Source of the DNA: Bacillota bacterium
Lineage (GTDB): Bacteria > Bacillota > Sulfobacillia > JAJZYS01 > JAJZLH01
NCBI GenBank assembly: GCA_021850485.1
Contig: JAJZLY010000002.1
Location: 1 to 64,000, forward strand
DNA: 64,000 nucleotides
Direction of reading: 5' to 3'
Position 1 is the first letter of the stretch; each line of letters begins with the position of its first letter. A program made the translations under genes and the position numbers. The notes under the pieces were generated by a model. The model was not told the DNA's origin. It saw only the letters and a program-made list of their open reading frames with translations, and searched no databases. Below, piece by piece: positions 23,158-59,552 of the stretch.

Positions 23158-25662
23158 GTGGTCGTGATCGCCGGCATCTACCTGACCATCCGGGTGATCA
23201 CCACATTGCCGTCGGTCAGCACCGTGGGCCAGCAAGCAACCCGCTCTGTGATCTACGACTTGGCTGGCCAGCCTGTCTCCTATTTGTGGGGACTGTCGGC
23301 CCAACCCCTGCCGCTGTCGCAGATCCCGCTCACCTTGCAAGATGCCATCATCGCCACCGAGGATCATGCCTTTTATCAAAACAGCGGCATCGACATCAAG
23401 AGCCTGCTGCGAGCCGCCCTCGCCGACCTGGTCCACCGGGCGGCGGTGCAAGGCGCGTCGACCATTACCGAACAGCTGGCCAAGCTCCACTATCTGACCA
23501 ACCAGAAGACGATCACCCGCAAGATCGCTGAAGTGGTGCTCGGCCTGGAAATCGCCCATACCTACACCAAGCCCCAGATCCTGGATATGTATCTGAATCA
23601 GGTCTATCTGGGCGAAGGGGCGACTGGCGTCGCCGCAGCCAGCCACATCTACTTCAACGAGACGCCAGACCAGTTGACCCTGGCCCAGGCTGCCTTGATC
23701 GCTGGCTTGCCACAGGCCCCTAGCTATCTCGATCCGTTCGTCAACCTCAGCGCCGCCGTCGCTCGCCAGCACCAGGTGCTGGCCAACATGGTGCAATACG
23801 GCTACATCACCCAAACTCAGGCTCTGGCCGCTGCCAAGGCGCCGTTGAATCTCTCTCGCGGCACGCTGTCGGTGTCGACCACCTACCCCTACCCTTGGTT
23901 CGTGGACACCGTGGTCAGCACCTTGCTCAGCCACGGCTTCTCCATGTCCGAACTCCTCAACGGCGGACTGAAGATTTACACCACCTTGGTGCCATCGGTT
24001 CAAAACGCCGCCACCAGCGCCGTGGCCACCGTCATGAACCAAGCATTCGGGGCGATCAAGCCGGGTGTCGTTCCGAACAACGAGGCCGCTGTGGTCGTCA
24101 TCAATCCCCACAACGGGTACGTGGAGGCGGTCGTTGGTGGCCGCGTGCATAACACGATCATGGCGTTCAACCGTGCGACGCAGGCATATCGTCAGACTGG
24201 TTCGGCGATCAAGCCGCTGGCCGAGTACCCGACCGCACTTCTCCAGGGCTATACGGCAGGCTCGATCATCGACGACGGGATCTGGATGTTCCAAAACGGT
24301 GTGCCCTGGCCGCAAAATGACAGCCACCGCTATCTGGGCCGGATCACCCTGCAGCGGGCGCTGTCTTTGTCCGACAACAACGCCTCCGTCCGCTTGCTGA
24401 GCATGGTTGGCATCCACAACGCCTTCGTCACTGCGACGCAAATCTTCGGACTGCCACTGATTGCGCATGGCACGCACAACGACCAAACACTGTCGATGGG
24501 AATCGGCGGGCTGACCCGAGGGGTGACCCCGATGCAGATGGCCGAGGCCTATACGGTTTATCCCAACGAGGGCTACCGGGCGATTCCCATCGTGGTCACC
24601 AAGGTGGTCAGCCCCACTGGCCAGGTGCTGTTTACAGACGCACCACAATTGATCCACGTACTCTCCGCCCAGATTTCCTACGTCATGATCAAGATGATGG
24701 AGCGGATGTTTGTCTACGGCACTGCCCGTAGCCCGCAACTACAAATCAATCGGCCGGCGGCCGGCAAGACCGGCACCACCTCCCGGGCCACCGACGGCTG
24801 GTTCATCGCCTTCACCCCACAATTGGAAGCAGTGGTGTGGGAAGGTACCGACAACAACGCCACCCAGCCCGGCGTGTATGGCGCCACGCATGCCGGTCCG
24901 ATCTGGGCCGATCTGATGAGAACCGTCGTTGCCAACATGCCGGTAGAGCACTTCGTACGGCCGCCCGGCATCGTGCAGGTCACGATCGACACCAAGTCTG
25001 GTATGCTCCCCAGCCCGCTGACACCCCGGCAGTACAATCCGGTATGGCTGGGCTACGTCGTGTCCAATCACTACTTCTATATCAACGGCACCCAGCCCAC
25101 CCAGCAGAGCAACGTCTGGATCCAGGTCCAGGTCGACAGTGCCGACACCAGCCTGCTCTGGACCCCGGGCTGCCCGTCCCCGCCGGTGACCAAAGTCTTC
25201 CTCGTCCGGCCCACCGACATCATGACCGGACCCGGGATGCAACTTCCCATCGACTCCGTGTACTGGGAGCCGACCCAGAGTTGCACCGGCAGCACGGCGC
25301 CCGCTCCGACGGGTCAGACCACCAGTTCAGCCACCATCTTCATTCAAAACGGCAGCGCCGCTCCCACCGCCATCTCGACGACAGTCGGCACCACCTTCTC
25401 CCTGACTTTGCAAAACGCTGACCTCGTTCCCTACACCTTCACGCTGCCAGCCTTCGGCGTGGGCACTCAGACCGTCGGAGGCAATAGCTCCCTCACGCTC
25501 ACCATGAACGCCAACCAAACCGGCATCTTCAACTGGACGCTGTCGCCCACCAACGGCGCCACGCCAACCGTCAACGGCACCTTCACCGTTCAGGCTGCAC
25601 CCGCCCCGACCTCGACATCCGGTGCGCCCGCGCCAACCACCACGCCGACTAGCACGCCGTAA
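23158..25662 (+). CDS. Class A penicillin-binding protein with cupredoxin-like C-terminal domain
   Basis: Bifunctional peptidoglycan synthase. The glycosyltransferase domain shows ATEDHAFY with catalytic E68 and GASTITEQLAK; the transpeptidase has S349-A-I-K352, S405-D-N and K537-T-G-T. Residues about 720-815 look like a cupredoxin beta-sandwich (FSLTLQNADLVPYTFTLPAF) but no Cys/His copper set is seen, and a Thr/Pro/Ala tail ends the protein. GTG 23158 is the first standard start in frame, yet it falls inside the membrane anchor. Upstream codons in the same frame continue the anchor (NFVRFARQHPWKLAVLTAL) without a usable start. ATG 23060, with AAGGGA upstream, would supply the missing N-terminus if the frame shifted by one base at the A5 run 23086-23090. 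Confidence 0.88.
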   Translation: MVVIAGIYLTIRVITTLPSVSTVGQQATRSVIYDLAGQPVSYLWGLSAQPLPLSQIPLTLQDAIIATEDHAFYQNSGIDIKSLLRAALADLVHRAAVQGASTITEQLAKLHYLTNQKTITRKIAEVVLGLEIAHTYTKPQILDMYLNQVYLGEGATGVAAASHIYFNETPDQLTLAQAALIAGLPQAPSYLDPFVNLSAAVARQHQVLANMVQYGYITQTQALAAAKAPLNLSRGTLSVSTTYPYPWFVDTVVSTLLSHGFSMSELLNGGLKIYTTLVPSVQNAATSAVATVMNQAFGAIKPGVVPNNEAAVVVINPHNGYVEAVVGGRVHNTIMAFNRATQAYRQTGSAIKPLAEYPTALLQGYTAGSIIDDGIWMFQNGVPWPQNDSHRYLGRITLQRALSLSDNNASVRLLSMVGIHNAFVTATQIFGLPLIAHGTHNDQTLSMGIGGLTRGVTPMQMAEAYTVYPNEGYRAIPIVVTKVVSPTGQVLFTDAPQLIHVLSAQISYVMIKMMERMFVYGTARSPQLQINRPAAGKTGTTSRATDGWFIAFTPQLEAVVWEGTDNNATQPGVYGATHAGPIWADLMRTVVANMPVEHFVRPPGIVQVTIDTKSGMLPSPLTPRQYNPVWLGYVVSNHYFYINGTQPTQQSNVWIQVQVDSADTSLLWTPGCPSPPVTKVFLVRPTDIMTGPGMQLPIDSVYWEPTQSCTGSTAPAPTGQTTSSATIFIQNGSAAPTAISTTVGTTFSLTLQNADLVPYTFTLPAFGVGTQTVGGNSSLTLTMNANQTGIFNWTLSPTNGATPTVNGTFTVQAAPAPTSTSGAPAPTTTPTSTP

Positions 25663-25720
25663 CCTCGGCACACCAGCCCAGCAGGACCAAGTCTGGAGTC
25701 TGGCGTGTCGATAGCGGTGC

Positions 25721-26743
25721 CTAGGTGACAGTATCCGGCCGGTCGGCAAGTGTCGGCTCGACCGTAGCCACTGGCACGGAGCCATCTATGCTCAGCACGG
25801 AACTGGCCTCGGTGAACCAGCGCAAAGGTGCGCTGTGGCCCCAAAAGGTCTGTCGGCGTGGGTCGTCCAGACGCCACCGGATCGGCTCGAAGTCTGGGTC
25901 TGCCGTCAGATAATCGCCGCTGTACAGTTCAATACGATGGCCATCAGGGTCGCGCAGATAGAGAAAAAAAGCGTTCGAGATGCCGTGGCGGCCCGGCCCC
26001 CGCTCCAGCGCCTCCACCTCGCCTTTGGCGGCTAAGATGTCGCAGGCGCGCAAAACAGATTGCTGGTCAGGCACCCAAAAGCCCAGGTGGTGGACTCGGG
26101 GCCCCGCTCCGTTCATCAGGGCGACATCGTGCACGCTGGGTTTTCGGTAGAGCCATGATGCCCACACCTTGGGCGGGTCGCTAGCCGTCTCCGTGTACTC
26201 CGAACAACGAAATCCCAACTGCTCCGTGTAGTAGCGATGGGCGGAGGCTACATCTGGCACAAACAGATTCAGATGGTCAATGCGCATCGGAGTGGCTCCG
26301 CGGTACAGCTCAAACCGCTGCAGGTGGCGTTCAGCCGCATCCATGGCGTAAAACAGCTCTACCGTGAACCCAAATGGGTCCGAAAAGCGCAGGGCTGGCC
26401 CCTGACCTCTCTCATCTCCCGCCGCCACCAACTGACAGGCCAGTCCTGCGCTGTGGCAAAACTCGGCGGCCCGATCCAGATCCTGGTCGCTGCGCACTCT
26501 AAAGGCGACATGGGTCACGGCCGGTACAGCGCCCAGCTTCAGCGCCAGTGAATGGTGGATGCGTTCTTCCAGTCCGCGCAAGTAGGCGTGCGTGGCCGTC
26601 CGTTCGGTCAGCACAAAGCCGAGGCTATCGCAGTAGAACTCGAGCGACCGGTCCAGGTCCTGGACCACCAGCTCGGCATGGCCGAAGCGGACGATATCAA
26701 ATGGCGGAAGCGGCAGAGGTGCCGTTGCATCTAGGTTAGTCAA
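25721..26743 (-). CDS. hpaD: Extradiol dioxygenase, 3,4-dihydroxyphenylacetate 2,3-dioxygenase type
   Basis: Ring-cleavage enzyme of 340 residues from the vicinal-oxygen-chelate superfamily, opening homoprotocatechuate next to the catechol. Two repeated modules start at FGHAELVVQDLDRSLEFY and IDHLNLFVPDVASAHRYY. Iron ligands of the second module are IDHLNLF, RVHHLGFWV and HRIELYSGDYL, the last being the extradiol fingerprint Glu. TTG 26743 overlaps the hpaC stop by 8 nt with GGAAGGAGAG upstream. It ends the hpa operon and converges with the PBP gene. Confidence 0.88.
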   Translation of the reverse strand: MTNLDATAPLPLPPFDIVRFGHAELVVQDLDRSLEFYCDSLGFVLTERTATHAYLRGLEERIHHSLALKLGAVPAVTHVAFRVRSDQDLDRAAEFCHSAGLACQLVAAGDERGQGPALRFSDPFGFTVELFYAMDAAERHLQRFELYRGATPMRIDHLNLFVPDVASAHRYYTEQLGFRCSEYTETASDPPKVWASWLYRKPSVHDVALMNGAGPRVHHLGFWVPDQQSVLRACDILAAKGEVEALERGPGRHGISNAFFLYLRDPDGHRIELYSGDYLTADPDFEPIRWRLDDPRRQTFWGHSAPLRWFTEASSVLSIDGSVPVATVEPTLADRPDTVT

Positions 26744-55526: not shown

Positions 55527-55803
55527 CCCCAAAGCCACCTTTGGGATAGCGCCAGGCGATGTTGTACTCCGGGCAGGCGATACGACAGGAGCCACATTCC
55601 ACACAACCCTCGAAGCGGACGGCCAGCTCTTGAGTGTCCACCTGCCACTCGTAGACGTTGGCTGGGCAAAAAGCCTCACAGGGCCGTCCCCACTTATCAC
55701 CGCACTCCTGGCACTTTTGCATGTCCTTAACCACCAGGTGCGATTCCTGATCAGCCTTGAACTTCAGGGTGTACAGCTTTTGCTCGATGGTTTCTCTGGT
55801 CAT
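55507..55803 (-). CDS. fixX: Ferredoxin-like protein FixX
   Basis: A 98-residue iron-sulfur protein that passes electrons between FixC-type flavoproteins and the FixAB electron-transfer flavoprotein. The cluster ligands lie in CEAFCPANVYEW and FEGCVECGSCRIACPEYNIAW, and GGFGVTHRLG closes the protein as in FixX/YdiT. An additional Cys pair is in QKCQECGDKWG. The ATG overlaps the fixC stop (ATGA). No fixA or fixB gene is in the window. Confidence 0.92.
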   Translation of the reverse strand: MTRETIEQKLYTLKFKADQESHLVVKDMQKCQECGDKWGRPCEAFCPANVYEWQVDTQELAVRFEGCVECGSCRIACPEYNIAWRYPKGGFGVTHRLG

Positions 55804-57113
55804 CCGCGCATCGCCGCCTTCCACATGCCCCACATGTCCTTGGCTAGGGTCAAGGGGCGCCGTTTGGCCAGAACGGATTTGATCAGGCCACGCTCCTTTT
55901 CGTGCTTGGGCACGCCATCAACCGTCATCAGCGTCTTGGCTGCCTGATTCAGTAGCTCCGGGTAGAGTTCGAAGAAGGCTTGGCGGTTGTGCTCCATGAA
56001 GGTCGGCATGTTGCGGTACTGCTTGAGGTCCTTGAGCACGAAACTCTCTTCCAGTCGCCGCCGATAGGCGCTGAGGGTAGCCGCCGAGAAGTCCCCTTTG
56101 GCCTTGGCCATTACCACCGTCTCACCGGCCAGTTCGCCCGACTTCATGGCCAGGTTTGAGCCTTCCCGGTGCAAGACATTGATCAACATGGCGGCGTCTC
56201 CGGCCAGCAGGAATCCATCTCCCACCACCTCAGGCATGGCGTTCATACCGCCCTCCGGGATCAGGTGGGCAGTGTATTCATCGACCTCACCGCCAGCGAT
56301 CAACGGAGCGATCGTCGGGTGCTGCTTGAGATCTTCCAGGAGCTCGTAAGGGCGCACCTTGCGCTGCTGGAATTCGGACAAAAGGCAGCCCACGCCGATC
56401 GAGATGCTATCCAAGTTGGTGTACAGCCATCCCTGACCGACCATGCCATGGGTGGCGTCTCCCATCATCTCCATCACCACGCCGTGGTTGCCAGAGACGG
56501 CGAACCGCTCGCAGATGGTTTCGGCTGGCAGCCGGATCACCTCTTTGACCGCCAAGGCAACCTGGTTGGCCATCAGTTCGCCGCGCAGACCCATCTCCTT
56601 GGCCAGAAGCGAGTTAACGCCGTCGGCGATCACCACCACGTCGGCCAAAAGCTCTCCGTCCGGCGTGCCAGTGGTCACGCCGATCACCCGCCCGGAGGCG
56701 TCTTTGAGCACATTGGTGACGGGCATCTGGTTGATCAGAAATGCGCCCGCCTCTTCCGCTTTGTGGGCGAACCACTGGTCGAACTTGCCTCTGAGCACGG
56801 TGAAGGCGTTATACGGCTCGTCGCCAAACGACGGATCGCGATAGCCCACCGTGACGGCGGTCGATGCTGTCATCATGCTGATCCGGGACTCCACCACCAC
56901 CCGCTCGAGCGGTGCCTCCAGCCAGAAGTTGGGGATCAGATCCTCCAGCATCTTGCGGTAGAGGACGCCGCCCATCACATTCTTGGCGCCTGGATAGTCG
57001 CCTCGCTCCAAGAGCACCACACTGAGGCCGGCCCGAGCCATGGTCAGGGCGGCCGCGGCCCCGGCGGGCCCGGCTCCCACCACAATCGCGTCGAACTTCT
57101 CTGCCTCTGCCAC
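55800..57113 (-). CDS. fixC: FixC-type electron-transfer flavoprotein:quinone oxidoreductase
   Basis: FAD-dependent dehydrogenase of 437 residues. The N-terminal dinucleotide fold is VVGAGPAGAAAALTMARAG, followed by GDYPGAKNVMGG typical of ETF-QO/FixC, and the second FAD contact DGFLLAGDAAMLINVLHREG. It would take electrons from ETF and, with FixX, feed quinone or ferredoxin by bifurcation. GTG 57113 (7 nt after GAGGG) is preferred to the adjacent TTG. It lies 32 bp after selD. Confidence 0.92.
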   Translation of the reverse strand: MAEAEKFDAIVVGAGPAGAAAALTMARAGLSVVLLERGDYPGAKNVMGGVLYRKMLEDLIPNFWLEAPLERVVVESRISMMTASTAVTVGYRDPSFGDEPYNAFTVLRGKFDQWFAHKAEEAGAFLINQMPVTNVLKDASGRVIGVTTGTPDGELLADVVVIADGVNSLLAKEMGLRGELMANQVALAVKEVIRLPAETICERFAVSGNHGVVMEMMGDATHGMVGQGWLYTNLDSISIGVGCLLSEFQQRKVRPYELLEDLKQHPTIAPLIAGGEVDEYTAHLIPEGGMNAMPEVVGDGFLLAGDAAMLINVLHREGSNLAMKSGELAGETVVMAKAKGDFSAATLSAYRRRLEESFVLKDLKQYRNMPTFMEHNRQAFFELYPELLNQAAKTLMTVDGVPKHEKERGLIKSVLAKRRPLTLAKDMWGMWKAAMRG

Positions 57114-57145
57114 CAAAACGCCCTCTTCCCTGAGATGCGGTCTGC

Positions 57146-58204
57146 TCAGTGCTGCTGGGGCCGGCCAATCAGGGTCAAGGCGTGGCCGCCTTCGGCAAGG
57201 ACCTCCCCGATCTGCCAGAACTTCACATCTTCTGCCGCGAATTGGGCCTCCAGTTCCGCCGACCGCTGCCGGTCACAGCTGATCAGAAGTCCGCCCGAAG
57301 TGACGCCGTCGGCGTAGACCACGATCTCACCTTCGGTCAAAGGCTCAACCACGTCGAGCTCTCCGGCGACATGGCGCATGTTGTCCCAACTACCGCCCGG
57401 CACCTCTCCGTCTTTGGCGTGGGCGAAGGTGGTGGGATGCACCGGCACCCGGCTGGCATCGATCACCAGCCTGACGCCAGAGGCCGTCGCCATCTCCAGG
57501 CCATGGCCAAGCAGGCCAAAGCCGGTGATGTCCGTAACCGATCGGATGCCGGAAACAGCCCGTACAGCTTGGGCGGCTGCCCGATTGAGCTGGGCCATCC
57601 AGGCCACCATGCTGCGCTCTACATCGGCATCGATCAGGCCATCCTTGGTCGCCTTGGCCAAGATGCCCGTGCCGATCGGCTTGGTCAGATAGAGCACATC
57701 GCCCGGCTTGGCGCCTTCCTTGGTCCAGATCTGGTGTGCGGGTACCACACCGGTCACGGCCAGTCCGTACTTGGGGATCGGATCGTCGATGGTGTGTCCG
57801 CCGATCAATACGGCACCGGCCTCTCGCACCTTGTCCAACCCGCCTTGCATGATGTCGTGCAAGATCGACGTCGGCAGGTCCTCGACGGGGAAGGCCGCCA
57901 GGGCCATGGCGGTGATCGGCGTGCCGCCCATGGCGAACACGTCGGACAGACTGTTGGCAGCCGCCACCTGGCCGTAGCTGTAGGCGTCGTCAACGATCGG
58001 GGTGAAGAAGTCCACGGTCTGAACCAACCAGGTGTCGTCGTTGATAGCGTAGACCCCGGCATCATCGGTGGCGCCGACAATCAGGCGCGGATCGTCGAAC
58101 GTCAAATTGAGATCAGCCAAAATCCGATGCAGGTCCTCCGGACCCACCTTGCAGCCTCAGCCGCTCTTGTTGGATAAAGTGGTCAGGCGCACCGCCTGGG
58201 GCAT
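57146..58204 (-). CDS. selD: Selenide, water dikinase SelD with in-frame selenocysteine codon
   Basis: Makes selenophosphate from selenide and ATP. The reading frame begins at ATG 58204 (AGGAGG 8 nt upstream) and passes a TGA at 58159-58157: MPQAVRLTTLSNKSG, Sec16, GCKVGPEDL. This is where SelD proteins have their catalytic Cys or Sec (SG-U/C-GCK). The downstream part shows DDAGVYAINDD, the ATP-site VQTVDFFTPIVDD and GGHTIDDPIPKYGLAVTG, and ends TLIGRP. With TGA read as Sec the protein has 352 residues, the normal length. Automatic gene calls would start at the GTG after the TGA and lose the active site. Confidence 0.95.
58129..58147 (-). promoter_or_regulatory. Candidate bacterial SECIS hairpin in selD
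   Basis: Ten to twenty-eight nt after the UGA, GTGGGTCC pairs with GGACCTGC (eight pairs including two wobbles) around a GGA loop. Distance fits bacterial SECIS elements recognised by SelB; the loop lacks a clear GU. Confidence 0.5.
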
Positions 58205-58217
58205 CGCTCCATCCTCC

Positions 58218-59552
58218 TCAGTTCAAAAGGCAGCGGGCCAAAATCTCCGCGACCTCAGCCAATCGCTGAGCGGGCAAGGTCCGCACATCCACCACGATCA
58301 TGCCACCTTCGACCTGGACCAGCAACGCGACCGCACCCTGGCGCAGCTCTGCCTGCACGGCCGATGCGGATTTGGGCCGTGGGTCGATGGCGACTGCCAC
58401 GCCTGGCAGCTCTACATCGGGCATGCTGCCGCCACCGGCGACGCCCCCCTTTGGCCGGACAGAGGCCTGCACGCCGCGCCGCTTCAGGTGGGCGATCAGT
58501 CTCTTGGCCTGCCTGCGCAGGGCGCCTGGGTCGGCTGTCACCATCTGGCGCACCGGGATCTGGTCCGGTTCCACCAGGGTCTGCCACAAGGTAGCCCGCA
58601 GTGCTGCTAAAGTCATCTTATCCGGCCGCAGTGCCCGGTAGAGCGGATGTCTTTTCATCTGGTCGATCACCGTCAGGCGGCCGACGGCAATGCCAGCCTG
58701 TGGCCCTCCGAGCAGTTTATCGCCGGAAAAGGTGACGACGTCTGCGCCCTGGCGCACCCGGCTGGCGACATCGGGCTCCGCGGGCAGCGGCAGCAGGCTG
58801 CCACTGCCCAGGTCATCGATCATCACCAGGTGATGGGTATGGGCCAACTGGGCCAGTGCCAGAGGATCGGCTTGCTCGGTGAAGCCGCGGATCTGGAAAT
58901 TCGACGGATGGACACGCAATAAGGCGGCGGTGTTCGGTCCGATCGCCCGCTCATAGTCAGCCAGCCGCGTGCGGTTGGTGGTGCCCACCTCAACCAGTTC
59001 GGTTCCGGAGGCCGCCATGATGTCGGGCACCCGAAAAGAGCCGCCAATCTCCACCAGTTCGCCGCGCGAGATCACCACCTGGCGGCCTTGGGTGAGGGTG
59101 ATCAGGGCCAAGAAGACGGCGGCGGCGTTGTTGTTCACCACCACTGCCGCCTCGGCGCCGGTCAAAAGTGTGAGGAGCGACTGCAGGTGGTCTTGGCGGC
59201 TGGAGCGGTGTCCGGACAGGAGATCGAACTCCAAGTCGCTGTAGCCGAGTGCTGCCCGGGCGGCCATGGCGGCAGCACGCTCGGACAACGGCGCTCGGCC
59301 GATGTTGGTGTGAATCACCACCCCGGTCCCGTTCAAGATCTCGGTCAGACCCGGGCCAGATCGGGCCACGGCCTGCTGCACGCGCCTCGCCAGCTCGCTC
59401 TCGGCGATCGGCTCATGGGTTTTTGTGAGCGTCGCTCTGGCCTGCGCCAGTTCGGCCTCAATCAGGCTCACCCACAACCGATTGGCTGGCAGTGAGGTCA
59501 GCTCCAACAGACGGGTGACAGAGGGCAACTGGCGGCGCGGGTCATCGGTCAT
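58218..59552 (-). CDS. selA: L-seryl-tRNA(Sec) selenium transferase SelA
   Basis: PLP enzyme of 444 residues converting seryl-tRNA-Sec to selenocysteyl-tRNA with selenophosphate from SelD. The cofactor Lys lies in TFSGDKLLGGPQAGIAVG. LNGTGVVIHTNIGRAPLSE, NNNAAAVFLAL and MIDDLGSGSLLPLP are family signatures. ATG 59552, with AAGGAGGGGGAG upstream, overlaps the end of the deacetylase gene by 11 nt. It lies 13 bp before selD; selB and the tRNA-Sec gene are not in the window. Confidence 0.95.
   Translation of the reverse strand: MTDDPRRQLPSVTRLLELTSLPANRLWVSLIEAELAQARATLTKTHEPIAESELARRVQQAVARSGPGLTEILNGTGVVIHTNIGRAPLSERAAAMAARAALGYSDLEFDLLSGHRSSRQDHLQSLLTLLTGAEAAVVVNNNAAAVFLALITLTQGRQVVISRGELVEIGGSFRVPDIMAASGTELVEVGTTNRTRLADYERAIGPNTAALLRVHPSNFQIRGFTEQADPLALAQLAHTHHLVMIDDLGSGSLLPLPAEPDVASRVRQGADVVTFSGDKLLGGPQAGIAVGRLTVIDQMKRHPLYRALRPDKMTLAALRATLWQTLVEPDQIPVRQMVTADPGALRRQAKRLIAHLKRRGVQASVRPKGGVAGGGSMPDVELPGVAVAIDPRPKSASAVQAELRQGAVALLVQVEGGMIVVDVRTLPAQRLAEVAEILARCLLN

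Follow-up and report, generated by a model that had tools for sequence, protein, structure and literature searches.

The selD locus described here, part of a 64,000-nucleotide stretch of a Bacillota genome (the window), raises the question of how a gene for selenophosphate synthetase (SelD) is read when its sixteenth codon is TGA. Such a codon could specify selenocysteine (Sec), betray a damaged or miscalled gene, carry another meaning throughout the genome, or lie ahead of the true start. Sec-containing SelDs are textbook selenoproteins and have long been known. In one survey, 19% of the prokaryotic SelDs carried Sec, which in every case occupied the same position (PMC4561486), and no selenoproteins are more widespread in bacteria than SelD and the formate dehydrogenase FdhA (PMC1794560). 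Here, we compare the locus with those of related genomes and describe the Sec machinery and further selenoproteins of the 1.6 Mb host genome, which is assembled in 33 contigs. Feature coordinates are collected in Table 1.

Table 1. Positions of the selD locus and associated features; unprefixed coordinates refer to the window, those prefixed G000 to contigs of the host genome.
Feature	Position	Strand	Details
selD, full read-through ORF	57146..58204	-	352 aa, Sec = residue 16
In-frame UGA, predicted Sec codon of residue 16	58157..58159	-	conserved TGA; aligns with Cys of 3u0o/2yye
bSECIS hairpin	58129..58147	-	8-bp stem GUGGGUCC/GGACCUGC, apical loop GGA
Ribosome-binding site AGGAGG	58213..58218	-	8 nt before ATG (58202-58204); overlaps selA stop codon
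selA, L-seryl-tRNA(Sec) selenium transferase	58218..59552	-	TIGR00474 488 bits, cut-off 268; PF03841
FixC-like FAD-dependent oxidoreductase gene	55800-57116	-	directly downstream of selD, same strand
Peroxiredoxin selenoprotein	G000:C17:51995-52378	-	FTGGU or FTAGU; TGA in 3/3 genus genomes
SelL-related redox selenoprotein	G000:C26 near 25600-26060	-	TUxxCQ; TGA in 3/3 genus genomes
SelW-like selenoprotein	G000:C2:326498-326716	+	CTEUGYL; TGA in 3/3 genus genomes
Split, rearranged Sec formate dehydrogenase operon	G000 contig C20, 84502-89013 (L060 4500-9013)	-	outside the window, same contig

Translated through codon 16, the frame contains no other in-frame TGA before its terminal one and encodes a recognizable SelD from end to end. 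The product scores 354 bits against TIGR00476 (cut-off 125; residues 6-313) and 336 bits against PRK00943 (cut-off 299), carries AIRS and AIRS_C domains, and aligns along its full length with two SelD chains of known structure, 3u0o and 2yye, which differ in having Cys where the host protein would have Sec16. The sequence-only reading had proposed that read-through restores the segment SNKSG-U-GCKVG and a normal length, and the alignment agrees on both points: the segment falls opposite AGCGCK in 3u0o and SGCAAK in 2yye, and displays the catalytic pattern G-(C/U)-x-x-K, with Lys three residues after Sec/Cys16. Together with the conservation and the machinery described below, this points, with a probability of roughly 0.97, to a functional selenophosphate synthetase whose catalytic residue 16 is selenocysteine; we infer both Sec insertion in the cell and the enzyme activity of SelD from sequence and homology.

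Standard ORF calling gives a different product – an ORF of 333 aa at 57146-58147 with a GTG start and without the catalytic segment – so that the gene is truncated in the way that the sequence-only reading had foreseen. Initiation at this GTG (58145-58147) would yield a shorter SelD devoid of the Sec segment, and the entry in the mechanical ORF list speaks for it. Such a start is nevertheless extremely improbable, since the GTG falls inside the hairpin considered below and the protein would lose the catalytic segment, with its Cys/Sec and Lys, that is matched in the solved enzymes. It also leaves unexplained the peptide encoded before the UGA, which is conserved as protein among relatives, and the AGGAGG ahead of the ATG, already recognized as a strong ribosome site when the sequence was first read.

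A lone stop codon early in selD is what one would expect if a decaying or miscalled gene had acquired a nonsense mutation or been misread in sequencing, but the codon is shared well beyond this assembly. The genus has two other genomes, assembled independently and from different species, and in both of them SelD (90% and 82% protein identity) keeps the same TGA; sequencing error, such as a misread TGC or TGT, is excluded because the TGA is independently present in these genomes. Among 61 related genomes, 52 of 53 SelD-type matches contain a TGA, and in base-by-base alignment of SelD loci of the class, codon 16 is TGA in 31 of 32 (two of the 32 being second copies of same-genus genes), the exception being L046, with TGT (Cys). 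The body of the gene also speaks against decay. Compared with locus L016, its codon changes are synonymous in 104 cases and non-synonymous in 30, and the L017 comparison gives 103 and 57; these mostly synonymous changes indicate that the selD body is under purifying selection. Taken with the near-universal TGA in class relatives, this leaves a mutated or miscalled gene with hardly any probability.

Two SelD genes are present in several related genomes (G005, G007, G010, G030, G032, G047, G050 and G053), usually both with TGA. In the G032 pair, one gene has no stop (Cys) and the other has TGA.

A second expectation from the sequence was that a hairpin just downstream of the UGA fits a bacterial SECIS element (bSECIS). 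The hairpin spans exactly 10-28 nt past the UGA, with the loop 17 nt from the codon and a folding energy of -10.1 kcal/mol. Published bSECIS rules call for a loop of 3-9 nt with G in the first two loop positions, an upper stem of 4-16 bp, a distance of 16-37 nt from the UGA and an energy of at most -7.5 kcal/mol (PMC13188914). With its 3-nt loop starting GG and its stem of 8 bp, the selD hairpin lies within all of these bounds.

Single-sequence folding was considered as evidence for the SECIS and set aside as non-significant: the folding energy alone is unremarkable (z -0.2 to -0.9), and among all TGAs of the window 3.0% have hairpins that score equally well, as do 2.8% of the synonymous recodings. 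Comparison was used instead. The pairing is maintained in related lineages through changes from G-U to A-U, U-G to U-A and G-C to A-U, and the hairpin region shows hardly any synonymous change, whereas in the rest of selD roughly one codon in three has changed in this way. Within codons 17-27, which encode the hairpin, the window and L016 differ by two synonymous and no non-synonymous changes, and the L017 comparison gives none and two, respectively. The Cys-form relative L046 has only a 4-bp hairpin of -2.9 kcal/mol. Because both pairing and sequence are kept in relatives, the selD hairpin is more than a chance structure.

The position of this hairpin varies within the class, with the apical loop lying 17, 20 or 33 nt downstream of the UGA (loci L018-L047). 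The 17-nt register occurs in this genus and in two to three other families, the 20-nt register in other families of the same order, and the 33-nt register in many other families. We regard it as an evenly balanced proposition that the Sec-SelDs of the class have at least three SECIS placements (17, 20 and 33 nt, with loops GGN or GUN), and that SelD may record a shift of the hairpin along the mRNA while the Sec site stayed fixed.

The Sec reading implied that SelB, tRNA(Sec) and other selenoproteins should be found elsewhere in the genome, and they are. selA lies directly upstream of selD, with 13 nt from its end to the selD start, and the two genes probably form one operon. The gene for SelB (contig C15) scores 353 bits against a family cut-off of 242, and selC, encoding tRNA(Sec) with anticodon UCA (contig C2), reaches 72.7 bits where the gathering score is 47; since both are found, the absence of selB and selC that had been named as grounds for rejection does not occur. 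The gene directly downstream of selD, for a FixC-like oxidoreductase, possibly belongs to the same operon. Genes for the selenouridine synthase MnmH/SelU, which represents another use of selenophosphate, were sought in the three genus genomes and none was found, so that Sec is the only selenium use detected among those sought.

These genes also bear on a genome-wide change in the meaning of UGA, either by reassignment (for example, to Trp) or by leaky termination, with which the open frame through the selD TGA would be compatible. A codon with such a general meaning sits poorly with the use of TGA as terminator by both selA and selD, with the presence of a Sec-specific tRNA, SelB and SelA, and with the occurrence of UGA at Sec positions in five known selenoprotein families; its probability is accordingly minimal.

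Besides SelD, the host genome encodes at least four selenoproteins with an in-frame UGA, each TGA being kept in all three genus genomes. They were found through family searches and in targeted stretches of the genome, and the list is a minimum because only chosen families were searched. The formate dehydrogenase fdhA has Sec at CNRTUHAPSV (TGA in 3/3 genus genomes) and a hairpin whose 5-nt loop contains GGUC; the peroxiredoxin, SelL-related and SelW-like proteins are given in Table 1. FrhD/FlpD selenoproteins were also sought, and none was found.

Together, these components suggest how the locus may operate. Ribosomes translating a selA-selD message would meet the UGA at codon 16, where the hairpin, with its GGA loop 17 nt past the codon, would recruit SelB carrying Sec-tRNA(Sec), and Sec would be inserted in place of termination. 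The resulting SelD is predicted to convert selenide and ATP to selenophosphate, with which SelA would turn Ser-tRNA(Sec) into Sec-tRNA(Sec). This would in turn serve SelD itself as well as the formate dehydrogenase, peroxiredoxin, SelL-related and SelW-like proteins.

The formate dehydrogenase (FDH) has an organization of its own. Its operon is split and rearranged, running from the Sec catalytic chain through NuoE-like and NuoF-like genes (named by eye from their sequences) to a separate 287-aa protein. The UGA-containing catalytic chain, of 655 aa, covers model positions 51-672 and is without its own Fe4S4 module; the 287-aa protein carries 2Fe-2S, 4Fe-4S and Molybdop_Fe4S4 modules. This split arrangement is conserved within the genus. 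A sister family in the same order has it in most of its genomes, and it turns up in three further genomes of the class; many other class relatives encode a single fused chain, about 900 aa long. No specific description of a split Sec formate dehydrogenase came up in the literature searched. The nearest description concerns Sulfobacillus – Bacillota from acid mine drainage – where Sec formate dehydrogenases are described beside NuoE/F/G-like genes (PMC4378227), and the host resembles it to the extent that its Sec FDH catalytic subunit also adjoins such genes; the short text of that paper makes no mention of a catalytic chain without an Fe4S4 module of its own. Genome sizes and this gene neighbourhood suggest that the host lineage may be close to Sulfobacillus.

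Like other prokaryotic Sec-SelDs, the host protein has Sec at the single known site, a UGA with a bSECIS just downstream, and selA, selB and selC in its genome; there is no essential difference from these, and only the host lineage is new. It belongs to a well-known selenoprotein type, and the understanding of SelD is unchanged. The SECIS placements of related SelDs could aid study of how SECIS elements move. In this lineage, standard gene calls would cut or miss selD, fdhA and the peroxiredoxin, SelL-related and SelW-like genes. On the evidence of the genomes compared, the use of selenocysteine would now be established for an uncultured, small-genome lineage of the Bacillota.
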